From the NCBI RefSeq assembly GCF_000154285.1, contig NZ_DS483475.1, positions 1 to 64,000 of the forward strand: a stretch of DNA of 64,000 bases, given 5' to 3'. Shown here one piece after another: positions 26,370-39,231 of the stretch (the stretch's first letter is position 1; each line of letters begins with the position of its first letter). The notes beneath the pieces were generated by a model, which ran no database searches, was not told where the DNA came from, and saw nothing but the letters and a program-made list of their open reading frames with translations. The position numbers were made by a program, and so were the translations under genes. This DNA comes from Amedibacillus dolichus DSM 3991. GTDB taxonomy: Bacteria; Bacillota_I; Bacilli_A; Erysipelotrichales; Erysipelotrichaceae.

Positions 26370-26549
26370 ATGCCGAAAGTAGTACTTAAAGAAAACGAAG
26401 TTCTTGATGACGCACTACGCAGATTTAAGCGTCAGGTGTCAAGAAATGGTACCCTTGCTGAAGCTCGCAAAAGAGAGTTTTACGTAAAGCCAGGCGTTCG
26501 TCGTAAATTAAAATCAGAAGCTGCACGTAAAGCACGTCGTGGGAAATAA
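26370..26549 (+). CDS. rpsU: 30S ribosomal protein S21
   Basis: The 59-residue, highly basic protein is S21 of the small subunit ([10 protein letters not shown] start; [15 protein letters not shown]; arginine-rich tail ending RKARRGK). GGGAGG precedes the ATG. The frame is open further upstream, but that part overlaps the promoter. It has its own promoter and terminator. In Bacillus rpsU is also near the yqf-phoH cluster. Confidence 0.97.
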
Positions 26550-26573
26550 GAAGTCAATTTGACTTCTTTTTTT
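26550..26573 (+). terminator. Terminator of rpsU
   Basis: GAAGTCA and TGACTTC form a perfect stem with a 3-nt loop, followed by seven Ts. Confidence 0.9.
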
Positions 26574-26597
26574 ATATATTTGTGAGTATGGAATAAC

Positions 26598-26640
26598 TTT
26601 ACATAAAATTAACATTTCTTGTTCTTTTTCGTTTTATAAT
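26598..26640 (+). promoter_or_regulatory. PhoP-box-like repeat and -10 box before yqfC
   Basis: TTTACA (26598-26603) and TTAACA (26609-26614) are direct repeats 11 bp apart, which is the PhoP box arrangement of Bacilli (TTAACA-like hexamers, 5-bp spacer). A perfect TATAAT follows at 26635-26640 without a good -35. That is the usual layout of a PhoP-activated promoter. It would drive yqfC-yqfD-phoH-phoP-phoR. Confidence 0.6.
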
Positions 26641-26663: not shown

Positions 26664-26692
26664 GCATATTCAGCTATGGTAAAACGTATTCT
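26664..26692 (+). promoter_or_regulatory. Sigma-E-like promoter candidate before yqfC
   Basis: GCATATT fits the sigma-E -35 consensus exactly. After 14 nt CGTATTCT matches the -10 at five of eight positions. The Bacillus yqfC-yqfD genes are sigma-E dependent. Confidence 0.45.
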
Positions 26693-26711
26693 GTTACATA
26701 GGGGTGAAAGC

Positions 26712-26912
26712 GTGCTGTCTATTCATAACAATAAAATCCTATTGGAACATTATGAGCAGATTCTATTCATTTCTACAAATCGAGTGAAGGTAGTAACCGA
26801 TGCTGCGGAAATCGAATTTGTGGGAGAGCATATTCAGGTCTTGGCTTTAGAAAAGAATGAGCTGCTTATGGAGGGTATACTTTCTCAAGTGAGGTTTCAG
26901 CATGTTCAATAG
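26712..26912 (+). CDS. yqfC: Sporulation protein YqfC
   Basis: This small beta-rich protein matches the C-terminal two thirds of YqfC (segments KILLEHYEQILFIS, VLALEKNELLMEGILSQVRF). It is expressed in the mother cell in Bacillus; its biochemical role is unknown. The GTG at 26712 (66 residues) has AGGGG 7 nt upstream and lies after the sigma-E-like promoter. A longer frame beginning at 26658 or ATG 26676 would overlap that promoter but come nearer to the usual length. It overlaps yqfD by 11 nt. Confidence 0.75.
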   Translation: MLSIHNNKILLEHYEQILFISTNRVKVVTDAAEIEFVGEHIQVLALEKNELLMEGILSQVRFQHVQ

Positions 26913-27831
26913 AAGGGCTATGGGGCTTGATGCTTGGCGTGTAGATATGCCGGTAGAAACTTTTTTACGAATTGTGAAAGTTTTTGATTTGGAGCTGTAT
27001 GATATTTCCTTTCAAAAAACTGCTATTTGCTTTTATGCTCATGTATGGCAAAGACGCAATATTGTACATGCTTTAAAGGAAGCTGAGCTTGTCGCAACAA
27101 CCGGAGCGATTGCTTACCTACTTCGTAGCCTTCGTAAGCCGTATCGTCTGCTTGCTTTGCTTATCAGTATGCTGCTTTGGTACGTCTGCTCACAAACCGT
27201 ATTAACGATTGATATTCGTGGTGAAAGCGAGAAGCACCGCCAGCTCATTGCATCTACCTTGCAAGAGCTTGGCTATCGTACTCCCTTTTATGATAAGGAT
27301 CTGGCAGAGATGAAAGCAAAGCTGAAAAAGCGCTTGGAAAATGATATAGCATGGTTGGAAGCCTATCAAGAAGGTAGTCGTTATGTTATCACATACACAC
27401 CTAAGGAATTTGCTAAGTTACAGGTATTAAAACAAGATGCTTTAATTGCCCAAGAGGACGGAGTGATTGCACAATTTGAAGTTTCCCATGGCTCGAAATG
27501 TCGTAGGGTGAATGAATTTGTGCACAAAGGAGATATATTGGTAGATAATGTACTTCTTGATAGCAAGGGACAGGAAGCTAAAACCGATGTAGAAGGAAGG
27601 GTATATGCTTATGTGTGGAAAGATGTTCGTGTAACGATGCCTTCCAATAGGCTTCCCAAAAGCTTTCAATTCTTTGATTTATTGATGGAGGCAAGACGTA
27701 TTGCTTCTTTGGATTTTCGTATAGGAGATAAGATTTCAAAAGAAAATATTTTGCAATTCTCTACGGATATGGGTAAAATAGAAATGGTTGTTCATTATAC
27801 CTTATATAAGGATATTACAACTCCCAGATGA
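26902..27831 (+). CDS. yqfD: Sporulation protein YqfD
   Basis: YqfD is a mother-cell sporulation membrane protein. The 309-residue product has a cytoplasmic N-terminus, one clear membrane helix (about residues 80-100, LLALLISMLLWYVCSQTVL) and an extracytoplasmic domain. The segment QEDGVIAQFEVSHGSKCRRVNEFVHKGDILV-like core of the family is present from about residue 190. It is some 90 residues shorter than Bacillus YqfD (about 398). It is coupled to yqfC and ends 11 nt before phoH. Confidence 0.85.
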   Translation: MFNRRAMGLDAWRVDMPVETFLRIVKVFDLELYDISFQKTAICFYAHVWQRRNIVHALKEAELVATTGAIAYLLRSLRKPYRLLALLISMLLWYVCSQTVLTIDIRGESEKHRQLIASTLQELGYRTPFYDKDLAEMKAKLKKRLENDIAWLEAYQEGSRYVITYTPKEFAKLQVLKQDALIAQEDGVIAQFEVSHGSKCRRVNEFVHKGDILVDNVLLDSKGQEAKTDVEGRVYAYVWKDVRVTMPSNRLPKSFQFFDLLMEARRIASLDFRIGDKISKENILQFSTDMGKIEMVVHYTLYKDITTPR

Positions 27832-27842
27832 TAGGAGATTCT

Positions 27843-28829
27843 ATGAGTAAACAATATACGATAAACCTAAAAGAGTATCCAATGGATTGGATTGTTAAGT
27901 TATGCGGACCACAGGACAAACATTTTTCACTGATTTGCGATGCGTTTTCTGTGCAGCTGCTTGTACGTGATAATGAGCTGCGAGTTCTGTGTGAAGATGA
28001 GAAAGTATTTCATCGGATTGAAAAGCTGATTGCGAGTGTGATGGAAATGCTAGAGAATCATGTTGATGTGCAGGAACGCGATATCATGTATTTATGCCGC
28101 TTAGCAAAGACCGATAAGTTGGATCAACTAGCAGCTATGTACCAACGTCCAATTGGGAAAGCCATAAGCGGTAAGCTGATTTATCCGAAAACGATCGGAC
28201 AGCGTTATTTGTTTCAATGTATGAGTCATTCGGATATTGTTTTTGCGACTGGTGTAGCAGGAACCGGAAAAACATATCTTGCGGTGGTTTATGCGGTTAG
28301 TCAATTGAAGAACGGAGCGGTTCGAAAAATTATTCTTACACGTCCTGCTGTGGAGGCCGGAGAAAATTTAGGGTTTTTACCGGGTGATCTTAAAGAAAAG
28401 GTCGATCCCTATTTACGTCCATTATATGATGCGCTTTATGATACCTTAGGAAGTGAGCAGGTGGAAAAGCTGATAGAAAAAGGAATCATTGAAATCGCAC
28501 CTTTGGCTTATATGCGCGGCAGAACGTTGGATAATGCTTTTATTATTTTAGATGAGGCACAAAATACAACTCGCTCACAAATGAAAATGTTTTTAACGCG
28601 CATGGGCTTTCAATCGAAAATCGTTATTACCGGTGATGTTACGCAGATTGATCTTATTCGCAAGCAAGACAGCGGTTTGTTGAATGCCAAACAGCTGCTA
28701 TCCGGAATTGAGGGTATTTCCTTTGTGGAACTAACGAGTCTAGATGTTGTGCGTAATCCACTCGTTCAAAAAATTATCGAGCGATATGAAAGGGAGGAAG
28801 AAGGATATGGCAAAAATACTTCTGATTGA
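27843..28829 (+). CDS. phoH: PhoH family ATPase
   Basis: The 328-residue PhoH protein has an N-terminal small RNA-binding-like region and a P-loop ATPase/helicase core. The Walker A is GVAGTGKTYLA, followed by ILTRPAVEAGENLGFLPGDLKEKVDPYLRPLYDAL, quoted here by its first part LTRPAVEAGENLGFLPGD. The Walker B is FIILDEAQNTT and the sensor region ITGDVTQIDL. PhoH proteins have been linked to RNA metabolism and belong to the Pho regulon in some bacteria. TAGGAG precedes the ATG at 27843. Its end overlaps the response regulator gene by 23 nt, tying it to the Pho two-component system. Confidence 0.93.
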   Translation: MSKQYTINLKEYPMDWIVKLCGPQDKHFSLICDAFSVQLLVRDNELRVLCEDEKVFHRIEKLIASVMEMLENHVDVQERDIMYLCRLAKTDKLDQLAAMYQRPIGKAISGKLIYPKTIGQRYLFQCMSHSDIVFATGVAGTGKTYLAVVYAVSQLKNGAVRKIILTRPAVEAGENLGFLPGDLKEKVDPYLRPLYDALYDTLGSEQVEKLIEKGIIEIAPLAYMRGRTLDNAFIILDEAQNTTRSQMKMFLTRMGFQSKIVITGDVTQIDLIRKQDSGLLNAKQLLSGIEGISFVELTSLDVVRNPLVQKIIERYEREEEGYGKNTSD

Positions 28830-29484
28830 AGATGAAGAAAATATTCGTAAGATCATTGCTTATGATTTGAAAAAGGCAAATTATGAAATCGTGGAAACCG
28901 GTGATGGTAGAGAAGCAATCGAATTAGCCGGAAGCAATGATTTCGATGTTTTGATTATTGATTGGATGCTTCCGCATGTAAGCGGGATTGAAATAGTAGA
29001 GCGATTACGAGAACGGAAAAACGACAGCATCATGATAATGCTGACGGCTCGTGATGATGAAACAGATATCCTACATGCTTTTGAAAAGGGAGTTGATGAT
29101 TATATCACCAAACCGTTTTCCCCTCGGGAATTGCTTGCAAGAGTCAATGCACATTTAAAACGTCGTAAAGGAAGGGAAGAACCTAGACTGGTATTCGGTG
29201 ATATTTGCATGGATCTCAAGCGACGCAGCATACTTTTAAAGGAACAGGAATTAGAGCTTACAAAAAAGGAATTTGATTTATTGGAATATTTTATTTCCAA
29301 TAAGGAGGTTGTTCTTTCGCGTGATAATATTTTAAATGAAATTTGGGGCTTTGATTATGATGGAGATACACGAATTGTCGATGTTCACGTATTTAAGCTA
29401 AGAAGTAAGCTAGCCAATAGCAATATTCAAATTAAATCTATGCGAGGCATTGGCTATGTCATTGAGGAAAAGCATGAAGAGTAG
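28807..29484 (+). CDS. phoP: OmpR/PhoB-type response regulator, PhoP-like
   Basis: The 225-residue protein has a receiver domain (acidic pocket EDEE, phospho-accepting D52, conserved K in ITKPFSP) and a C-terminal winged-helix DNA-binding domain (ELTKKEFDLLEYF; RIVDVHVFKLRSKL; RGIGYVI). The adjacent histidine kinase and the pst-phoU genes make it the likely phosphate-starvation regulator. GGAGG lies 9 nt before the ATG. The start lies inside phoH. It would bind the TTTACA/TTAACA repeats noted upstream of yqfC and pstS, giving autoregulation (inference). Confidence 0.87.
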   Translation: MAKILLIEDEENIRKIIAYDLKKANYEIVETGDGREAIELAGSNDFDVLIIDWMLPHVSGIEIVERLRERKNDSIMIMLTARDDETDILHAFEKGVDDYITKPFSPRELLARVNAHLKRRKGREEPRLVFGDICMDLKRRSILLKEQELELTKKEFDLLEYFISNKEVVLSRDNILNEIWGFDYDGDTRIVDVHVFKLRSKLANSNIQIKSMRGIGYVIEEKHEE

Positions 29485-30691
29485 ACGCTATGTGGCTTAC
29501 GCCTTGCTGGTGTTGGTACTGATAAGCGTACAAATAGCAACGGAAGCAAGTGCATTAACAATGGTTTTGGTTATGTCGATTGTCTTTTTTGTGTTTTGGG
29601 AATACTTTGATAAAAAAAGTGAGCTATTGGTGCGTAAAGAAAATAAGGAGCTGCAGGAAAAGGTAAAATCCTCTGCTAAAGATGCACACTTGAATTATAA
29701 GCAACTACTAACTGTTGTAAGTAGTATTCCTTTCCCATTGTTGTTACTGGATCCTTTTGGAAACATTGTTATGAGCAGTAATGTTGATGAGATTAGCGAA
29801 GGTGAGATTCAGGAAAACATGACCTATGCAAACAACAGCTTTGTTTATCCGGTGCAGGAGTTTATAAAGGATTGCTTTATTATGGAGCGCGCAATGGATA
29901 CGATTTTACATATTCAAGGGATTGAGTATCAGTCTATCTGCGTTCCGGTTACGGCAAAAGGAAAATATCGCGGGTGCTTGTTGCTGTTTCAAGATGTATC
30001 GAAAACTTTGGAAGGAGAGAAAATGCAAAAGCGCTTTATTGCCGATGCTTCTCATGAATTGAAAACACCGATTGCGGTTATTAAAGGCATGGTAGAAATT
30101 TTAAATCGTGATGACTTTGATGATCCGCAAATGGAAAAAGAATTTTTGACGCAGATTGAAAGTGAAATCAATCGTTTGGATGGATTGGTGAAGGATTTGT
30201 TGATATTATCGAGATTATCTTTATCCAATGTTTTACTAACGAAAGAATTTAACGATATGAATGAAATTATAAACAAAGCAATTCAATCCTTTAAAAAGCA
30301 GATTAACGAAAAAGGACTAAAGCTTGTTTGTGATTATCAATATCAAAGTCCGATTCGTTGCGATGCGATGAAAATGTCGCAGGTTATTATCAATTTATTA
30401 TCAAATGCAATCAAATACAGCGACCAAGGTACAATTCGGATACAAACTTATCGAGAAAATAATTTCTTTGTGTGTACGGTAGCAGATGAGGGACAGGGAA
30501 TTGCAAAGGAAAATTTGGATAAAATTTTTCATCGCTTTTATCGTGTAGATGATGCCCGTACACGTAGTAAGGGTGGTTCTGGTTTAGGACTTTCGATTGT
30601 GAAATCTACTGTGGAAGCACATGGTGGCAATGTTGAGGTTGATAGTGAATTAAACAAGGGAACTAAGTTTATTGTTCGTATACCTCTTTAG
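29474..30691 (+). CDS. phoR: Sensor histidine kinase, PhoR-like
   Basis: The 405-residue kinase has two close membrane helices (residues about 7-45), a PAS domain (SSIPFPLLLLDPFGNIV), a HisKA domain with the active histidine in DASHELKTP near residue 193, and a HATPase_c domain (N box NLLSNAIKYS, G1 DEGQGIA, G2 GGSGLGLSI). The very short loop between the helices leaves no large sensor domain. This fits PhoR proteins that sense phosphate through the Pst transporter and PhoU. The ATG at 29474 after GAGG is preferred over TTG 29450 or ATG 29456. It overlaps phoP by 11 nt. Confidence 0.87.
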   Translation: MKSRRYVAYALLVLVLISVQIATEASALTMVLVMSIVFFVFWEYFDKKSELLVRKENKELQEKVKSSAKDAHLNYKQLLTVVSSIPFPLLLLDPFGNIVMSSNVDEISEGEIQENMTYANNSFVYPVQEFIKDCFIMERAMDTILHIQGIEYQSICVPVTAKGKYRGCLLLFQDVSKTLEGEKMQKRFIADASHELKTPIAVIKGMVEILNRDDFDDPQMEKEFLTQIESEINRLDGLVKDLLILSRLSLSNVLLTKEFNDMNEIINKAIQSFKKQINEKGLKLVCDYQYQSPIRCDAMKMSQVIINLLSNAIKYSDQGTIRIQTYRENNFFVCTVADEGQGIAKENLDKIFHRFYRVDDARTRSKGGSGLGLSIVKSTVEAHGGNVEVDSELNKGTKFIVRIPL

Positions 30692-30717
30692 GCACATTGC
30701 TGCCTTTTTCTTTTTTA
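30690..30717 (+). terminator. Terminator after phoR
   Basis: AGGCA and TGCCT form a short stem around CATTGC, overlapping the stop codon and followed by TTTTCTTTTTT. Confidence 0.65.
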
Positions 30718-30721
30718 TAGC

Positions 30722-30750
30722 TTGCATTGTGCAAGAAGGAGTGCTATAAT
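30722..30750 (+). promoter_or_regulatory. tRNA-Glu promoter
   Basis: TTGCAT is followed after 17 nt by a perfect TATAAT, 19 nt upstream of the mature tRNA 5' end. The hexamers and spacing match those of rpsU. Confidence 0.85.
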
Positions 30751-30768
30751 AATCAAGCAAGTAAATAT

Positions 30769-30843
30769 GTCGCGTTCGGCAAGCGGTTAAGCCACAGCCC
30801 TCTCAAGGCTGTACCACGGGTTCAAATCCCGTACGCGATACCA
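30769..30843 (+). tRNA. tRNA-Glu (anticodon CTC)
   Basis: A full cloverleaf of 75 nt with encoded CCA is visible. The acceptor stem is GTCGCGT with ACGCGAT (one G-T pair). The D arm is GGC/GCC with AAGCGGTTAA. The anticodon stem is CAGCC/GGCTG with loop CTCTCAA. The T arm is ACGGG/CCCGT with loop TTCAAAT. The anticodon CTC reads GAG (Glu). It stands alone between phoR and the VanY-like gene. Most low-GC Firmicutes read both Glu codons with UUC, so this is probably an additional isoacceptor. Confidence 0.93.
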
Positions 30844-30854
30844 TATTGTATTCG

Positions 30855-30882
30855 AACGAACTACTCATTAGTTCGTTTTTTT
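30855..30882 (+). terminator. Terminator of tRNA-Glu
   Basis: AACGAACTA and TAGTTCGTT form a perfect 9-bp stem with a 5-nt loop, followed by a T-run. Confidence 0.9.
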
Positions 30883-30907
30883 ATATTTAGAAGAAGAATC
30901 AGATCAG

Positions 30908-30970
30908 AAAAAAGGCCGTACAGTCTAAGTGATAGTTTATAATCACTTAACTGTTACGACCATTTTTTAT
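30908..30970. terminator. Long bidirectional hairpin downstream of the VanY-like gene
   Basis: A long imperfect stem runs from AAAAAAGGCCGTACAGT through AAGTGAT/ATCACTT to ACTGTTACGACCATTTTTT. T-runs at both ends suggest termination in both directions, mainly of the minus-strand VanY-like gene. Confidence 0.7.
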
Positions 30971-31027
30971 TTGTTTTATATCGACATAAACTATAAACAT
31001 ACACATCATATATCATTATAAACAACT

Positions 31028-32227
31028 TTAGCTTTTAAGAGATACCGGATAATCGAAGCCATGCTGTTGAGTATATTCCTCTAGTGTTATTCCTTTTTCA
31101 TAGATTTCCGTAGCAACCTCCACTCCGACATAGCGAAAATGCCATGGTTCATTAGAAGCTCCGGTAATGTGGGTTTTATTTAAAGGATAGCGAAGAATAA
31201 ACCCATATTCATGAGCATGTTTCGATACCCATTCATATTCTTTAGTATAACCGAAAACAGGAATTTCCTCATCGATAACGCTTTGGCTTGTTAAATCGAC
31301 ACTTAATCCGAGTTGGTGTTCACTAAAGCCAGGTGGGGAAACTAAACCGGAGGCTGTTACGCTGTCGTAAATCGCAAACATCTGATCATAGATAATTTTT
31401 TGCTCCTTTGCGCTTCGATAAGCACTGTTCACTGCTAAATGCAGATCTTTCTTTAAAGCATCTTGATACATGTTCTCTAATGCTTCGGCAGCATCTTTTC
31501 GCATCTTGTTGTTGGTGTTGTCGGGAGCATTAGGTATGGCAACTTCTACAAGATTTTTCGGTACATAGTCAGTAGAAACCTGAAAGCCGTTTTTAATTAG
31601 GAGAACTGGGTGCTCGGGGTTTTCTAAATAATAAATACGAGAGGTTTTATTTTGTGAAATAATGTTTGGATAGGAGATTTCCATAATTGCTTCTTGAGGT
31701 TCTTTTTTTGTTTGTAGATACTGTGGAAGATCTTGTATGATGCAGCCGTTAATCTCAATATAAGGGGCAATTTGCTTCCAAGTCAAGGTATGCTCCTTTA
31801 GAAAAGCAAGCTCCTTAATTGTATAGCGATGCAAAAGCATTTGGATTTGTTTCGGTTGATAGCCATGTGCCACAAACCATTCGTGATAATTTTCATAATA
31901 TGTATCAATATAATCAACAATTTCCTTATCCTTTAACTCTGTATCACTTAACAACTCATAATTATAGTAATGCCGATTGTTTTCTAAACTATCCCAACGA
32001 GAAAAATCAATCGCACTATCATAGTTGAGATAATCGGCAAGCTCTTCTTTATCTAGGGTTAGTAAAAAAGCTCGTTCCTCTTTGTTATAGCCCTTAATGC
32101 TCAATTGAATACGTGTCCAATTTAAGAAAATAAGCATGGCAATAACAGCCAAAATCAACAGTATAGAAAGTAGTGTAATCCATCGTTCCTTCTTATCGTT
32201 TTCTCGGGGGTAGTAGTGTAAATTCAT
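31028..32227 (-). CDS. VanY-type D-alanyl-D-alanine carboxypeptidase (peptidase M15B)
   Basis: The 399-residue protein has one N-terminal membrane anchor (about residues 17-38), a long extracytoplasmic helical region and a C-terminal M15 zinc peptidase domain. Metal ligands and catalytic elements are visible: SAYRS, then H and D in SEHQLGLSVDL, then the final WHFRYVG. It removes the terminal D-Ala from peptidoglycan stems. No vanA/vanB genes are near, so this is a housekeeping or stress enzyme, not evidence of glycopeptide resistance. GGAGG lies 8 nt before the ATG at 32227, preferred over the upstream ATG at 32278. It shares its upstream region with pstS. Confidence 0.85.
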   Translation of the reverse strand: MNLHYYPRENDKKERWITLLSILLILAVIAMLIFLNWTRIQLSIKGYNKEERAFLLTLDKEELADYLNYDSAIDFSRWDSLENNRHYYNYELLSDTELKDKEIVDYIDTYYENYHEWFVAHGYQPKQIQMLLHRYTIKELAFLKEHTLTWKQIAPYIEINGCIIQDLPQYLQTKKEPQEAIMEISYPNIISQNKTSRIYYLENPEHPVLLIKNGFQVSTDYVPKNLVEVAIPNAPDNTNNKMRKDAAEALENMYQDALKKDLHLAVNSAYRSAKEQKIIYDQMFAIYDSVTASGLVSPPGFSEHQLGLSVDLTSQSVIDEEIPVFGYTKEYEWVSKHAHEYGFILRYPLNKTHITGASNEPWHFRYVGVEVATEIYEKGITLEEYTQQHGFDYPVSLKS

Positions 32228-32317
32228 CGGTTTCTCCTCCTTTACAGCTTTTGTTTTACCGTATGTATAATGATACAAGAAAATAGCGTAGAAAGCTATC
32301 TTTTACAGAATAAAAAA

Positions 32318-32356
32318 TTTACATTTTCTTAACATAAATGAAATATACAGTTTACA
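32318..32356 (+). promoter_or_regulatory. PhoP-box-like repeats before pstS
   Basis: TTTACA at 32318, TTAACA at 32329 and TTTACA at 32351 lie in one 11-bp register (the slot at 32340 is degenerate). This is the direct-repeat spacing of Bacillus PhoP sites. A likely -10 is TATCAT at 32366-32371. Confidence 0.6.
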
Positions 32357-32398
32357 TTCCTGCTGTATCATGATAGCTGTTCGAGGAGGAATGTAGGA

Positions 32399-33334
32399 AT
32401 GAAGAAAACATTGATGTTAGGTTTGGCATGCTTGATGAGCGTATCTTTAATGGCATGCGGATCAAATGAAGGAAGTAGTAATGGAGTAAGCGGAGAAATC
32501 GCTGTTTATACACGAGATTCATCTAGTGGAACGCGGGAAGCATTTGAAAAAGGAGTTGGCTTTGAAGGGGAGCTTACAAAGCATGCGACAGAAGTTACAA
32601 GCAATGACGATATGGCTGCGAAGGTCGGCGGTGAAGCAAGAGGAATCGGTTATACTTCTCTATCAACGGATTTTGAAAAAAACAACGTAAAGCCTTTGAA
32701 GTATGAAGGTGTTGAGGCATCAAGTGAAACGGTATTAGATGGTAGCTATGGGCTTCAACGTCCGTTTATGTTTGTAACAAGAGCAAGCGGAGATTTTGAA
32801 AGTGAGGAAAAAGAACAGTTAGTAGCAGCTTTCTTAGATTATTTACAAAATTCTGCGGAAGGTATGGCAGTAGTTCAAAAGGCAGGCGGTGAGGTAGACC
32901 TTTCAAAAGCCGTTGCATGGGAAGAATTAGCAAGTAAATATCCGGTGCTTCAGCAAGATAATTCCGATATTACGATTACTACCGCTGGCTCTACCTCTGT
33001 TGAAAAAACACTTAAGGCGGCATTGGAGGCATTTTCACCATTGGCAGGAAATGTAAAGTTTGTCATGAATCAAAATGGCAGCGGTGATGCAGTTCCTAGA
33101 ACTTTAGGAAAAGAAAAAGACGGTGCCAATAAAGCGGATATTGGCTTCGCTTCAAGAGCCTTCAAGGAAGATGGAAGTGAAGATATTGCTTCGGCAATGG
33201 TAAGTGGTCAGTATTGTATTGATGCTGTCGTAGCGGTGGTACATAAGGATAATCCTTTGGAGGATATCACACAGGCGCAGCTAAAAGATATTTTTACAGG
33301 GAAGATAACAAACTGGGAAGATTTAAATAAGTAA
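32399..33334 (+). CDS. pstS: Phosphate-binding lipoprotein, circularly permuted PstS
   Basis: The 311-residue lipoprotein (lipobox LMAC, Cys20) is the extracellular phosphate receptor of the Pst ABC transporter. Its halves are in reverse order compared with classical PstS. Residues about 32-165 match the normal C-terminal half (SSSGTRE phosphate loop at 41-47, GIGYTSL, RPFMFVT). Residues about 190-311 match the normal N-terminal half (TAGSTSV at 195-201, ADIGFASR, then DIFTGKITNW at the end). All ligand-binding loops are present, so the fold should be intact. Strong SD GAGGAGG. The pstCAB-phoU operon follows after a hairpin. Confidence 0.85.
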   Translation: MKKTLMLGLACLMSVSLMACGSNEGSSNGVSGEIAVYTRDSSSGTREAFEKGVGFEGELTKHATEVTSNDDMAAKVGGEARGIGYTSLSTDFEKNNVKPLKYEGVEASSETVLDGSYGLQRPFMFVTRASGDFESEEKEQLVAAFLDYLQNSAEGMAVVQKAGGEVDLSKAVAWEELASKYPVLQQDNSDITITTAGSTSVEKTLKAALEAFSPLAGNVKFVMNQNGSGDAVPRTLGKEKDGANKADIGFASRAFKEDGSEDIASAMVSGQYCIDAVVAVVHKDNPLEDITQAQLKDIFTGKITNWEDLNK

Positions 33335-33347
33335 GCTTTAAAGTAGA

Positions 33348-33372
33348 AACAGCCTGATGTTCTCAGGCTGTT
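33348..33372 (+). other. Perfect hairpin between pstS and pstC
   Basis: AACAGCCTGA and TCAGGCTGTT form a 10-bp stem with a 5-nt loop, followed only by ATTTATCT. It lacks a strong U-tract. It more likely stabilises the pstS mRNA end or stops a fraction of transcripts, so that the binding protein is made in excess. Confidence 0.6.
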
Positions 33373-33398
33373 ATTTATCTAAAAGATTGGAGAGTATT

Positions 33399-34337
33399 AT
33401 GGAATTATATGTGCGAAAGCATACCAGCAGCAAAAAAAATAATAAGAAGCTAAAGCATGATAAAGCAATGAAAAAGGTATTTATGAGTGCAGCTTTGCTG
33501 TCAAGCAGCATGCTGGCAGTCATTGTGATTTTTATTGCATTGAAAGGAATTACACCTTTTGTTGGTACAGATACCTATGAGGCAGTAAATGTATTTGATT
33601 TTCTATTTGGAAACATGTGGCGAAAGGATCAAGGTATTTATGGGGTTGGATTTATTATCATTAACACTTTGATTTCCAGTTTTGCGGCATTGCTGATTGC
33701 ATTTCCATTAGCGGTCTTGAGTGCCTTGTTTATTTGTAAGATTGCTCCTAAAAAACTGGCAACTATGATGACTTCAATCGTTGAGCTGTTGGCAGCTGTA
33801 CCCTCTGTTGTATATGGTGTCTTTGCATGTGGGACAATAACCGTCATAGTAAAAGAGCTAGGGGCAATGTTGGGTTTTGCTACGGTTGGTGGCGCAAGTC
33901 TTTTGGCAGTCATTCTCTTATTGGCAATTATGATTTTTCCAACCATCACTTCATTGTCAATTACGGCAATCAATGCAGTGGATACAGAAATGGAGCTAGG
34001 AAGTTTGGCGCTTGGCGCAACAAAGACACAAACAAATTTTAAGGTTGTATTGGCAAGTGCAAAATCCGGTATTTTTGCTGGAGCGATATTAGGCATCGGA
34101 CGCGCTTTTGGAGAAGCGACAGCAGTGGCAATGGTTGCCGGAAATAAGATGTTTGGACCAACCTTCCACCTATTTGATACAACAAGAACCTTAACCACGA
34201 CCATGCTTTCCGGATTAAAGGAAACTAGTGGTCTAGATTACGATATTCGCTTTTCAGTCGGACTGGTGTTGATGGCAGTGATTTTGCTTTCTAACCTGAT
34301 CTTGAATTATGTGAAGAAAAGGGTGGGAAAACTATGA
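33399..34337 (+). CDS. pstC: Phosphate ABC transporter permease PstC
   Basis: PstC is one of two membrane subunits of the high-affinity phosphate importer. The 312-residue protein has six membrane helices and the family elements ELLAAVPSVVYG, the EAA-loop ELGSLALGATKTQT and GIGRAFGEATAVAM. The frame is open from 33357, but TGGAGAG before the ATG at 33399 and the earlier hairpin favour this start. It overlaps pstA by ATGA. Confidence 0.93.
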   Translation: MELYVRKHTSSKKNNKKLKHDKAMKKVFMSAALLSSSMLAVIVIFIALKGITPFVGTDTYEAVNVFDFLFGNMWRKDQGIYGVGFIIINTLISSFAALLIAFPLAVLSALFICKIAPKKLATMMTSIVELLAAVPSVVYGVFACGTITVIVKELGAMLGFATVGGASLLAVILLLAIMIFPTITSLSITAINAVDTEMELGSLALGATKTQTNFKVVLASAKSGIFAGAILGIGRAFGEATAVAMVAGNKMFGPTFHLFDTTRTLTTTMLSGLKETSGLDYDIRFSVGLVLMAVILLSNLILNYVKKRVGKL

Positions 34338-35581
34338 ATAAAATCACAAGTGGAAATTTGAAAAAACGAAGGATAAAAGACACTATTTTAAATGGGATAA
34401 CCTATCTTTCTAGTGGTATCAGCGTATTGGTGTTGGCAGCCATTTTTATCTTTGTTTTTACACAAGGCTTTTCTAGTTTGAGTCTTGACTTATTAACCGG
34501 AAATTATTGGGCAAATAATTATCTGACAACTGTGGAAGCCGATAGAAATGCTCCCGATTGCTTTCAAGTTCCGAAGGAATTAGGGGAGGAAGTAGCATTT
34601 TCTGAAGCGTGGGGCGTAGGATTCGTTGATGCGCTTGATGAAAACAAAGAGCCGATTGTTTTGATTGAATATATTGATGAGGCATCTCCTTTTGCAAGTT
34701 TGATTGACAAAAGCGTGCATGATCGAGAAACAAAGTTATCGGCGGAGGTTGGCTATCAGGTAGAGCGAATCAATTATATGGGGAAAGACGGACATATAAA
34801 AATTGTTGGGAATCTGATGTCAAATGATGCGAAGCAGGTTGCGCAAGCCTTGGATCAAAATGCACAGAGCATTCAAGAAATGTATTTTAAGACTCCTGGG
34901 GGAGGAATTCGCGGATCGATTCTAGCAACCTTATATCTAATTGTAGTGGCTTTGCTAGTTTCTTTGCCACTAGGAATCGCAGCAGCTATCTATTTGCGAG
35001 AATACGCTTCGAAAAATAAGCTTACCGGTTGGATACGCAGTGCTGTGGAAATGTTAAGTGGTGTTCCTAGTATTATATTTGGTTTAATGGGAGTAACCGT
35101 ACTCTTTCCGATTACACAGCTATTTGGCGCAACAACAACGAATATTTTGTTAGGTGGTTTAACCCTTGCTGTCATTTTGCTGCCAACCATTATCCGTTCT
35201 AGCGAGGAAGCCTTAATTGTTGTACCACAATCTTTACGTGATGCTTCTCTTTCCTTAGGTGCTTCTAGGTCGCAAACAATCTTTAAGGTGGTATTGCCCA
35301 ATGCTATACCGGGTATTTTAACCGGTGTATTGTTAAGCATCGGACGAGTTATCGGCGAAAGTGCAGCGTTGATTTATACCATGGGCACGTATGTAAATGA
35401 TGCACCGCAGCTTTTATCGCAAGGGACAAGCCTAGCTGTTCACATTTATAATATCATGAGCAGTGAGCAGCCGAATTTTGAATTGGCTTGTGCAATTTCA
35501 ATTGTTATTTTAGTGTTTGTATTGATCTTGAATATTAGTATCAAATGGATTTCACGTCGTTTTCATAAGGCGATGCAATAG
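34334..35581 (+). CDS. pstA: Phosphate ABC transporter permease PstA with extra extracytoplasmic domain
   Basis: The second membrane subunit of the Pst importer is 415 residues long, whereas PstA is usually about 280-300. The core is canonical from about residue 187 (GGGIRGSILATLYLIVV; ELLSGVPSIIFG-like segment; DASLSLGASRSQTIFKV; GIGRVIGES-like segment). Between helix 1 (about 22-44) and GGGI lies an insertion of roughly 110-130 residues on the outer side, rich in charged residues and possibly a small alpha/beta domain. Similar enlarged PstA proteins exist in other Firmicutes as far as I recall. It overlaps pstC by four bases. Confidence 0.9.
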   Translation: MNKITSGNLKKRRIKDTILNGITYLSSGISVLVLAAIFIFVFTQGFSSLSLDLLTGNYWANNYLTTVEADRNAPDCFQVPKELGEEVAFSEAWGVGFVDALDENKEPIVLIEYIDEASPFASLIDKSVHDRETKLSAEVGYQVERINYMGKDGHIKIVGNLMSNDAKQVAQALDQNAQSIQEMYFKTPGGGIRGSILATLYLIVVALLVSLPLGIAAAIYLREYASKNKLTGWIRSAVEMLSGVPSIIFGLMGVTVLFPITQLFGATTTNILLGGLTLAVILLPTIIRSSEEALIVVPQSLRDASLSLGASRSQTIFKVVLPNAIPGILTGVLLSIGRVIGESAALIYTMGTYVNDAPQLLSQGTSLAVHIYNIMSSEQPNFELACAISIVILVFVLILNISIKWISRRFHKAMQ

Positions 35582-35593
35582 GAGGAAGGAATT

Positions 35594-36355
35594 ATGCAAA
35601 ACAACACAATTTTTCATATTGAAAACGTAGATTTGTTTTATGGTGAAAAGCAAGCTTTAAAACAAATTCAAATGAATATTCAAAAAAACAGCGTAACGGC
35701 GTTGATCGGGCCAAGCGGTTGTGGGAAATCTACCTTCCTTCGTTGCTTGAATCGTATGAATGATTTAATCGACGATTGTCGTATTGAAGGTAATATTCTA
35801 TTTGAAAATACGGATATTTATAAAGGGGATATGAATGTGGTTGATTTACGAACAAGGGTTGGAATGGTATTTCAAAAGCCGAATCCTTTTCCAATGTCTA
35901 TTTACGACAATATTGCTTATGGACCACGTTGTCAGGGAATTAAGGATAAAACGATTCTTGATGCGATTGTGAAGCAGTCTTTGGAAAAAGCAGCTCTTTG
36001 GGAGGAAGTAAAGGATCGTTTGAAGGATAGCGCCTTTGGACTATCTGGTGGACAACAGCAGCGTTTGTGTATTGCACGAGCGATTGCCATGGAACCGGAG
36101 GTTATTTTGATGGACGAGCCGACCAGCGCTTTAGATCCGATAGCAACTGCAAAGATCGAAGCGTTGATGGAAGAATTGAAAAATGAATATACGATCATTA
36201 TCGTTACGCATTCTATGCAGCAGGCATCACGTGTTTCGGATTACACGGCATTTTTCTTGATGGGTGAAGTTGTAGAATTTGATAAAACAAGTACGATTTT
36301 TCAACAGCCTAAAGATCAGCGTACAGAGGATTATATTACCGGAAGGTTTGGATAG
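35594..36355 (+). CDS. pstB: Phosphate ABC transporter ATP-binding protein PstB
   Basis: The 253-residue ATPase energises phosphate import. Walker [10 protein letters not shown], the PstB-typical [10 protein letters not shown]-loop [10 protein letters not shown], signature LSGGQQQRL, Walker [14 protein letters not shown] and switch histidine VTHSMQQA are all present. It starts 12 nt after pstA with GGAGGA. Confidence 0.96.
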
Positions 36356-36366
36356 GAGGCAGGTAT

Positions 36367-36999
36367 ATGGTAAAGCTAGATGCAGAATTGGCAGCAATGG
36401 AACAAAATCTTTTAAAAATGGCACAACGAGTGATTGCCATGCACGAAAAGGTGGTGGCTGCGTTAAAGCAACCGAGTAAAGAGATTGAACTCGATATCGT
36501 ACAGGCAGATGATGTTATCAATCATTTAGAGGAAGAAATAAACGATCAGGCAATTCGTTCCTTGGCGCTATTATCGCCGGTAGCTAGCGATTTACGTAAA
36601 GTGATTGCCGATATTAAAATTGCCAGTGAGCTGGAGCGTATTGGTGATTATGCGAAAAATATTGCTATCTTTTTAATTAAAAACGAAAGTTTAGATGCAA
36701 CGATTCGCAGCTATGGAATTGCGATGGAGGAGCAGCTTATGGAAATGTTAAAGGATACGATTACAGCTTATGAACAGCGTGATGTGGATATGGCTTTTGA
36801 GATAGCGGAGCGAGATAAGGCAATCAAGGAGCTGTATTATAAATTAAAGAGTAAACTAAAGGAGCAAGAGGATCTTCTTCAGCATATTTTCGAAATCAGT
36901 GCTATGATGCGCAATATGGAGCGTGCCGGAGATCATACGAAAAATATTTGTGAACATATTATTTATATGATGAAGGGACAGCATTACGATTTCGGATAA
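36367..36999 (+). CDS. phoU: Phosphate transport accessory protein PhoU
   Basis: The 210-residue all-helical protein has two PhoU three-helix repeats with metal-binding E/DxxxD motifs (LERIGDYAKNIA in the first, MERAGDHTKNICEHI in the second). It links the Pst transporter to PhoR and represses the Pho regulon when phosphate is plentiful. It is last in the pst operon. Confidence 0.95.
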   Translation: MVKLDAELAAMEQNLLKMAQRVIAMHEKVVAALKQPSKEIELDIVQADDVINHLEEEINDQAIRSLALLSPVASDLRKVIADIKIASELERIGDYAKNIAIFLIKNESLDATIRSYGIAMEEQLMEMLKDTITAYEQRDVDMAFEIAERDKAIKELYYKLKSKLKEQEDLLQHIFEISAMMRNMERAGDHTKNICEHIIYMMKGQHYDFG

Positions 37000-37010
37000 A
37001 CATTCGCTTA

Positions 37011-37036
37011 AAGGTGGCAATTGTCGCCTTTTTTTA
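37011..37036 (+). terminator. Terminator of the pst-phoU operon
   Basis: AAGGTGGC and GTCGCCTT pair (with wobbles) around AATT, followed by seven Ts. Confidence 0.8.
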
Positions 37037-37150
37037 TAAGAGCTAACGATATGTTTTTTTAGGAACAAAGCAAAAAATATGCTATAATGATTAGGAATAA
37101 AAGGAAGTTTTTATAAGTGTATGCGAATATGGTAATGAAAGAGGTAGGCT

Positions 37151-37618
37151 ATGGAAATTAACATCATCAATCAAACAGCGGAGAAGCGGTGGAATCGTTA
37201 CAAGAAGGATTTTCTTACGATTGCGCAAAAGACAGAAGAATTATTAAAGCTTAAACAGAGGTATTGTGCTTCGGTTATTTTTGTAACACCGCAAAAAATT
37301 CATGAAATCAACCGTGAGTATCGGCATATCGATCGTCCTACCGATGTTATTAGCTTTGCATTGTTAGATGAAGCAGATGAATATGAGATTATGGAGGACA
37401 GCATTGAACTGGGTGATATCTTTATCAATATCGAAGCAATCGTGAAGCAAGCAAGTGAATATGGTCATTCTATGCGTAGAGAGGTATGCTTTCTGTTTAC
37501 GCATGGCTTATTGCATCTATTGGGCTATGACCACATGGAACAGGAGGAGGAGCGCGTGATGTTTGCGCTGCAAGATGATATCCTATATGATATTGTTCCT
37601 AAAAAAAGCAGTACGTAA
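37151..37618 (+). CDS. ybeY: Endoribonuclease YbeY
   Basis: YbeY is a zinc endoribonuclease for 16S rRNA 3' maturation and ribosome quality control. The 155-residue protein has the three-histidine motif in HGLLHLLGYDH and the preceding TDVISFALLDE. A -10 box (TATAAT, 37083-37088) lies upstream. The order ybeY-dgkA-cdd-era-recO is the same as in Bacillus. Confidence 0.95.
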   Translation: MEINIINQTAEKRWNRYKKDFLTIAQKTEELLKLKQRYCASVIFVTPQKIHEINREYRHIDRPTDVISFALLDEADEYEIMEDSIELGDIFINIEAIVKQASEYGHSMRREVCFLFTHGLLHLLGYDHMEQEEERVMFALQDDILYDIVPKKSST

Positions 37619-37958
37619 ATTTTCTTATGCTTTTGCAGGCTTGCTTGATGGAATTCACAATGATGCCAGTATTCGCTTGCAGTTTGTATTGGGAGTTTGT
37701 ACGCTGCTTGCCGGCTTATTGTTGCATTTGTCGCTTATAGAATGGAGCATTGTCCTCATCTTGGTTGCACTTGTAATAGCAATGGAATATATAAACAGTG
37801 CGATCGAAACGCTAACCGATGTGTTATTTCCTAATTATGATCGGCGTGCAAAAAAAATCAAGGATTACAGTGCCGCAGCGGTGTTGGTAGTATCAATTGT
37901 GGCTTTGCTTTTCGGTATTATTATTTTCGGAGGACGGCTATGGATTATACTGATGTAA
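37563..37958 (+). CDS. dgkA: Diacylglycerol kinase / undecaprenol kinase DgkA
   Basis: This small membrane kinase has three helices and the conserved catalytic region EYINSAIETLTDVL. In Gram-positives the DgkA homologue phosphorylates undecaprenol. The frame begins at TTG 37563; ATG 37575 and 37587 are also possible, and the last gives the usual family start just before LKKAVRKFSYAFAGLL (123 residues). It overlaps the end of ybeY by up to 56 nt and the start of cdd by 19 nt, so translation is coupled. Confidence 0.9.
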   Translation: MRCKMISYMILFLKKAVRKFSYAFAGLLDGIHNDASIRLQFVLGVCTLLAGLLLHLSLIEWSIVLILVALVIAMEYINSAIETLTDVLFPNYDRRAKKIKDYSAAAVLVVSIVALLFGIIIFGGRLWIILM

Positions 37959-38338
37959 TAGAAAAAGCCTTGCAGGCGTGTGAGCATGCCTATGCTCCAT
38001 ATTCAAGGTTTTGTGTAGGTGCTTGCTTAAAAATGAAAGATGGAAGCTATATTTGCGGGGCAAATGTAGAGAATGCATCTTATGGCTTAACCAGCTGTGC
38101 AGAACGCAATGCCTTGTTTGCGGCATATTCTCAAGGATATCGCAAGCAGGATATTCAATGCATGGCGATTACTGCCAAACAAGATGAGCTGTGTCCGCCT
38201 TGTGGTGCTTGTCGTCAGGTAATGGCGGAACTGTTGGAGCAGCATACACCGATTATTTTAGCAAGTATAAAAAAACAGCTTGTAACAAATATAGAAGAAC
38301 TGATGCCGATGGCATTTACAGCAAAGGAGTTTTTATGA
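37940..38338 (+). CDS. cdd: Cytidine deaminase
   Basis: The 132-residue enzyme deaminates cytidine and deoxycytidine for pyrimidine salvage. The zinc and catalytic motif CAE (in TSCAERNALF) and PCGACRQ are present. GGAGG precedes the ATG inside dgkA. The stop overlaps era by ATGA. Confidence 0.96.
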   Translation: MDYTDVIEKALQACEHAYAPYSRFCVGACLKMKDGSYICGANVENASYGLTSCAERNALFAAYSQGYRKQDIQCMAITAKQDELCPPCGACRQVMAELLEQHTPIILASIKKQLVTNIEELMPMAFTAKEFL

Positions 38339-39231
38339 AATATAGATCAGGATTTATAGCGATTGTTGGGCGTCCTAATGCAGGAAAGAGTACTCTGTTG
38401 AATGCGATTTTAAAAGAAAAGGTGGCGATTACAACCCCAAAGCCACAGACGACGAGAAATAATATTTCCGGTATTTTGACAACCGAAGATACGCAATATG
38501 TTTTTGTTGATACACCGGGGATTCATAAGCCGAAGCATGAGTTGGGAAGAACCTTGAATAAGAATGCTTATACTGCGATTAGCGAAGCCGATGTCAATTT
38601 CTGGGTTGTTGATGCTACACAGCCGTATGGCAGCGGTGATGAATTTATGCTAGAAAAAATGAAGAGTGCGCATATTCCGGTTTTTTTGATTTTGAATAAG
38701 ATTGATTTGTTGGAAAAGGAAAAATTGCTTAAGGTTCTTGCAAGGTGGCAGGAGCGTATGGAATTTGCGGAAATTTTTCCTATCTCTGCTCTTACCAATG
38801 ATAATATTGAGCACCTTTTGGAAATCACTCGAAGTTATTTATCGGAAGGGCCGAAATATTTTCCGGACGATATGATCAGCGATCATGGTCTAAGCTTTCA
38901 AATAGCGGAAATCATTCGCGAAAAGGTTTTATATAAGACCAACGAGGAGGTACCGCATTCCGTAGCCGTGGTTGTTGAAAATATGGAGGAAACGGATAAA
39001 AAGGTATATTTACAGGCTGTTATAGTTGTGGAAAGAACCTCACAAAAGGCAATTTTGATTGGTAAACAGGCGGCTATGATTCGTGCGATTCGCTTAGCTG
39101 CGCAAAAGGAACTGAAGGAAAAGCTACATAAAAAGATTGAATTGGAGCTTTATGTGCGTGTAGAAAAAAATTGGCGTAATCGAGAAGGAAAATTGCAGCA
39201 GCTGGGCTATAGTGAGAAATTTGATGAATAG
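38335..39231 (+). CDS. era: GTPase Era
   Basis: Era is an essential GTPase that binds 16S rRNA during 30S assembly. The 298-residue protein has G1 GRPNAGKS, G2 PQTTRNNISGI, G3 DTPGIH, G4 NKID and a C-terminal KH domain (VPHSVAVVVENME; GKQAAMIRAIRLAAQKEL). The frame is open much further upstream inside cdd, but AAAGGAG before the ATG at 38335 and the family start KYRSGFIAIVGRPN fix the start. Confidence 0.97.
   Translation: MKYRSGFIAIVGRPNAGKSTLLNAILKEKVAITTPKPQTTRNNISGILTTEDTQYVFVDTPGIHKPKHELGRTLNKNAYTAISEADVNFWVVDATQPYGSGDEFMLEKMKSAHIPVFLILNKIDLLEKEKLLKVLARWQERMEFAEIFPISALTNDNIEHLLEITRSYLSEGPKYFPDDMISDHGLSFQIAEIIREKVLYKTNEEVPHSVAVVVENMEETDKKVYLQAVIVVERTSQKAILIGKQAAMIRAIRLAAQKELKEKLHKKIELELYVRVEKNWRNREGKLQQLGYSEKFDE

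Follow-up and report, generated by a model that had tools for sequence, protein, structure and literature searches.

What drives transcription of an operon in which two sporulation genes, phoH and a phosphate sensor system are joined is the question raised by positions 26598 to 26640 of the stretch analysed here, the first 64,000 nucleotides of contig NZ_DS483475.1 of the gut-dwelling Erysipelotrichaceae member Amedibacillus dolichus DSM 3991 (the window, whose numbering is used throughout). The original prediction read this segment as a PhoP box in front of yqfC-yqfD-phoH-phoP-phoR, placing all five genes in one autoregulated Pho operon. Our analysis suggests that the site is very probably a PhoP-activated promoter of these genes, accompanied by a further, sigma-E-type promoter; as a prediction, the autoregulated Pho operon is well supported. 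The elements of the region are listed below.

26598 to 26614, plus strand: Pho box TTTACA-N5-TTAACA, a pair of 11-bp direct repeats covering roughly -49 to -33, detected in motif scans and conserved in genomes G043 and G006
26620 to 26625, plus strand: degenerate further repeat TGTTCT, in register, ending 9 bp before the -10 hexamer and matching the register of the last repeat of the pstS promoter
26635 to 26640, plus strand: -10 hexamer TATAAT of a predicted PhoP-dependent, sigma-A-type promoter without a -35 element
26664 to 26692, plus strand: sigma-E-type promoter GCATATT-N14-CGTATTCT, just before the ribosome binding site (RBS) of yqfC, its N14 layout conserved across genera

The two hexamers, TTTACA (26598-26603) and TTAACA (26609-26614), are separated by the spacer TAAAA and precede TATAAT as the original prediction had described, except that what it called directly upstream is a distance of 20 bp from the end of TTAACA to TATAAT. 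Absence of a -35 element is also borne out: the bases at the corresponding distance (26611-26617) read AACATTT, and a sigma-70 scan called no promoter with its end at 26640. At least two direct repeats at an 11-bp period were taken as the mark of a Pho box; such repeats begin at 26598, and the further in-register repeats are degenerate. When the upstream region was shuffled 3000 times, the motif together with its -10 geometry was never matched.

The pstS gene of the window, which lies further downstream, provides a reference for this geometry.

32318 to 32371, plus strand: Pho promoter of pstS, with repeats at 32318, 32329, (32340) and 32351, followed by 9 bp and TATCAT

Upstream regions of pstS from 11 relatives and from the window carry three to four TTAACA-like direct repeats with a period of 11 bp, and the distance from the last of them to a -10 hexamer is exactly 9 bp. 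The yqfC site keeps the same order, namely TTTACA, TTAACA, degenerate TGTTCT, 9 bp and TATAAT, so that its repeats occupy, with no -35 element, the fixed position relative to the -10 that is common to the window's own and the 11 relatives' pstS promoters. A spacer-inclusive pstS matrix, trained without the pstS of the window, scored the latter at 31.2 bits, with the next best site at -0.85. These promoters offer a concrete definition of the Pho promoter for gut Erysipelotrichaceae (TTWACA repeats at an 11-bp period, 9 bp, -10); a literature search combining Erysipelotrichaceae with the Pho regulon returned nothing beyond a genome report with a single mention.

The bare motif is not selective. 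Exact TTWACA-N5-TTWACA occurs only twice in the window, at the yqfC site and at 32318-32334 before pstS, and with up to two mismatches 43 copies are seen against 51 expected from shuffles, which is no enrichment. In the 2.19-Mb genome there are 15 exact copies and nine of the reversed pattern, a weak enrichment that is poor evidence by itself. The full pattern was defined as the box followed by 20 bp, or by 31 bp (two more repeats), and then TANNNT, with the reversed pattern as control. At zero mismatches, the 20-bp form is found at two places in the genome, before yqfC and before a Na/Pi cotransporter gene with a PhoU domain, while the 31-bp form is found at four, which precede pstS, an RDD/PHP-domain phosphoesterase gene, an ABC ATPase gene (closest family 2-aminoethylphosphonate transporter, with a matching permease gene behind it), and PopT with glycerophosphodiester phosphodiesterase (GDPD). 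All six matches thus precede phosphate-linked genes, and the many equally good hits in unrelated promoters that the original prediction had named as its refutation, to be sought by a whole-genome scan, do not appear with the full pattern.

The remaining nine exact boxes lie within genes, in a repeated sequence, TTTACACCAAATTTACA, or between genes without the -10 geometry. TTTACACCAAATTTACA was rejected as a Pho site, since one copy adjoins a phage integrase gene and no copy has a mismatch-free, rightly placed -10. It is present in three genomic copies and forms part of a longer near-tandem repeat (L005, L007 and L008 at 1501-1517, L007 being the integrase-adjoining copy), which suggests integrase-binding or attachment sites.

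Among relatives, the two forms of the pattern gave 20 matches (18 distinct places) and no reversed controls in seven genomes with a close PhoP, and two matches against two controls in five genomes without this PhoP. Behind these matches lie, among others, genes for Na/Pi cotransporters, PopT and Ppx/GppA phosphatases; a LysR-type regulator gene and a TrkH-type transporter gene are preceded by one as well. The Ppx/GppA genes of G052 and G024 (L171 and L168 at 1501) have the pattern 60-75 bp upstream; these matches hint that the Pho regulon of the family extends to the turnover of polyphosphate or ppGpp.

The genes behind the site and the boundaries of the unit are as follows.

26548 to 26575, plus strand: terminator-like hairpin with T-run behind rpsU, a 9-bp stem then TTTTTATATA, isolating the operon from upstream
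26712 to 26912, plus strand: yqfC, YabP/YqfC family, above the Pfam cut-off, GTG start, RBS at 26700-26706
26902 to 27831, plus strand: yqfD, overlapping yqfC by 11 bp
27828 to 28829, plus strand: phoH, overlapping yqfD by 4 bp
28807 to 29484, plus strand: phoP, OmpR/PhoB-type response regulator, overlapping phoH by 23 bp
29474 to 30691, plus strand: phoR, PnpS/PhoR-type histidine kinase, overlapping phoP by 11 bp
30690 to 30715, plus strand: terminator-like hairpin at the operon end

All five genes were called correctly in the original prediction and overlap as one unit, by 4-23 bp on the same strand, with strong hairpins only at both ends and weaker hairpin calls within yqfD and phoR. YqfC and YqfD are recognisable and divergent, falling below the NCBIfam equivalog cut-offs. 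PhoP combines a receiver with a winged-helix domain and PhoR is a HisKA/HATPase kinase; both find their best NCBIfam match among Pho families (PhoB and PnpS, respectively), below the equivalog cut-offs in either case.

Between the Pho promoter and yqfC lies the second element. The sigma-E consensus consists of KMATATT and CATACAHT-like elements 14 bp apart, and the window agrees with it at 7/7 positions of the -35 and 5/8 of the -10. In one genome alone such an element is not significant. Summed over 12 genera it scores 133; shuffles give 108.6 +/- 3.0, with not one in 1000 reaching 133, and no other spacer length from 8 to 20 bp does as well as 14 bp. It is present at the start of yqfC with or without phoPR or a Pho box. 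The genome also encodes Spo0A and has a sigE-like gene adjoining another sigma gene, probably sigG. Conservation of the sigma-E-type promoter at this position suggests that the operon is probably doubly driven, by PhoP with sigma-A in phosphate starvation and by sigma-E in the mother cell. The original prediction is supported in its Pho part and missed the sigma-E-type promoter, with which the operon is probably not a Pho operon only. In the literature, sigma-E elements of Clostridium difficile are described as closely resembling those of B. subtilis (PMC3789822), and yqfC-yqfD is given as sigma-E-controlled in both C. difficile (PMC3789822) and B. subtilis (PMC3498285).

From the box, its geometry, the regulon-wide match, the conservation, the gene overlap and the sigma-E-type element, all of which are read directly from the sequence, we infer that PhoP binds and activates rather than represses, that the genes share one transcript and that sigma-E is used. 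In phosphate shortage PhoR would phosphorylate PhoP, and PhoP~P on the two 11-bp direct repeats would stand in for the -35 element and recruit vegetative RNA polymerase to TATAAT. One yqfC-yqfD-phoH-phoP-phoR mRNA would result, through which PhoP would amplify its own sensor system. From the sigma-E-type promoter, about 30 bp downstream, the same genes would be transcribed in the sporulating mother cell, starting about 50 bp further on; this promoter may serve the same role in relatives without phoPR at this place. As a prediction, phosphate starvation should increase expression of both spore-formation genes along with that of the phosphate sensor.

How far the arrangement is shared was examined in an even sample of 145 genomes from the family set of 272; YqfD is found in 35/145 and full-strength Spo0A in 34/145. 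The box with TATAAT also precedes yqfC in two other genera, represented by G043 (Longicatena caecimuris DSM 29481, Erysipelotrichaceae) and G006, where shuffles match it in 0.17% and 0.07% of trials (fractions 0.0017 and 0.0007), respectively. Since L. caecimuris is cultured and has the same arrangement, the prediction is testable. All three genomes with the box belong to a single supported clade (98/99) of six; its other members are G014, which lacks phoPR at this place, the boxless G052, and G086, in which the contig starts within the region. No box precedes yqfC in those genomes examined that have no phoPR behind phoH. Other positions within the operons of linked relatives were considered for a box and rejected: the only recurring match is inside the phoH coding sequence, and it is put down to codon conservation because G014, with no phoPR there, has it too.

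Several observations weigh against a PhoP-activated promoter at yqfC. The site has just two strong repeats, one fewer than pstS, and the boxes of G043 and G006 match 11/12 consensus letters with a spacing of 21 instead of 20. At one mismatch, the full pattern in the own genome is not clearly above the reversed control (9 vs 6; 10 vs 10). On the spacer-inclusive pstS matrix the yqfC site scores at chance level (7.6 bits, 15th place within the window), which is attributed to its A-rich spacer, its hexamers being perfect; the matrix, which picks pstS decisively and this site not, was dropped as support. Furthermore, no box precedes yqfC in eight genomes with phoPR behind phoH (G052, G027, G024, G035, G077, G030, G125 and G103; G086 is not assessable). 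As these keep the gene order and the box-bearers share one clade, the box before yqfC is a clade-level feature not required by gene order.

Other explanations were weighed. One is that PhoP does bind the site and represses or weakly modulates a constitutive TATAAT promoter giving basal PhoPR. The perfect TATAAT in an AT-rich stretch and the limitation to two strong repeats would fit, and repression of some promoters by PhoP is described for B. subtilis in a passage of PMC13403408. We consider this unlikely, however, because a -35 element is lacking and both position and register are those of the genome's own pstS and Na/Pi cotransporter promoters, where activation is expected. It is very unlikely that the sigma-E-type promoter is essentially the sole driver and the box a chance match in AT-rich DNA: most relatives show the sigma-E-type element alone before yqfC and the bare motif is common (15 exact copies, nine in the control), yet the full pattern is specific to phosphate-linked genes, the box is kept in two more genera and no shuffle is as good. 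Boxes of the WalR type are likewise direct hexamer repeats with 5-bp spacers, and WalR, or a different member of the OmpR family that recognises a comparable 11-bp repeat, might bind here; this seems hardly credible, as full-pattern matches across the genome precede phosphate-linked genes, and among relatives only those with this PhoP show enrichment of the pattern. Activation by PhoP combined with a sigma-E-type promoter remains the preferred explanation.

The operon is followed by a second Pho unit and then by genes of a different kind.

32399 to 36999, plus strand: pstS-pstC-pstA-pstB-phoU, second Pho unit of the cluster
37151 to 39231, plus strand: ybeY-dgkA-cdd-era, nearer to phoH where the Pho module is absent (G038)

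Behind phoR the order is a tRNA gene, vanY on the opposite strand, pstSCAB-phoU with its own Pho promoter, and ybeY-dgkA-cdd-era; vanY (31028-32278, minus strand, between phoR and pstS) encodes a VanY-family D-alanyl-D-alanine carboxypeptidase. Taken together, phoPR, the tRNA gene, vanY and pstSCAB-phoU form a Pho module spanning 28807-36999 between phoH and ybeY-dgkA-cdd-era. In G038, ybeY-dgkA-cdd-era lies 2.5 kb after phoH with no Pho genes between, and in G052 phoPR occupies that interval; insertion of the module between phoH and ybeY is the simplest reading. Upstream of ybeY (37009-37151) there are a terminator-like sequence and an AT-rich segment containing a separate TATAAT, so ybeY need not depend on the Pho units. 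In G006 (L165 1501-1554) a Pho-type box lies between apparently divergent genes, a leftward gene and ybeY, and points at ybeY.

It is tempting to go further and regard the operon as a two-way junction, in which PhoP would make YqfC and YqfD before the cell commits to sporulation and sigma-E would make PhoP and PhoR in the mother cell, each programme priming the other; such a junction could have originated with the arrival of the Pho module between phoH and ybeY, followed by acquisition of the box in a single clade. We offer this tentatively and regard it as rather doubtful.

The arrangement is new while its parts are known, and it is no new kind of system. As in the PhoB regulon of E. coli, 11-bp direct repeats replace the -35 near the -10 and the activator belongs to the OmpR family; the E. 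coli repeat is CTGTCAT, compared with TTWACA here, and the strong pair at yqfC stands one repeat further upstream of the -10. The yqfC-yqfD genes of C. difficile and B. subtilis are likewise placed under sigma-E in PMC3789822 and PMC3498285; in contrast to the window, no Pho box or phoPR is reported at these genes in the sections of the two sources drawn on here. An upstream sigma-W operon, yqeZ-yqfA-yqfB, is described as reading through into yqfCD in B. subtilis, unlike the situation in the window. The closest parallel is phoPR of B. subtilis, for which passages in PMC13403408 and PMC4415409, citing Paul et al. 2004, describe autoinduction by PhoP~P and promoters of three kinds, sigma-A, sigma-B and sigma-E. 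Sigma-A-type and sigma-E-type promoters, autoinduction by PhoP and a box of 11-nt direct repeats are features that the window would share with it, as predicted. As far as those passages go, the window differs in that only a single promoter each of the Pho and sigma-E types can be made out, pstSCAB-phoU is adjacent, and both promoters precede yqfC-yqfD-phoH, so that the sporulation genes and phoH would be carried along with the phosphate sensor.
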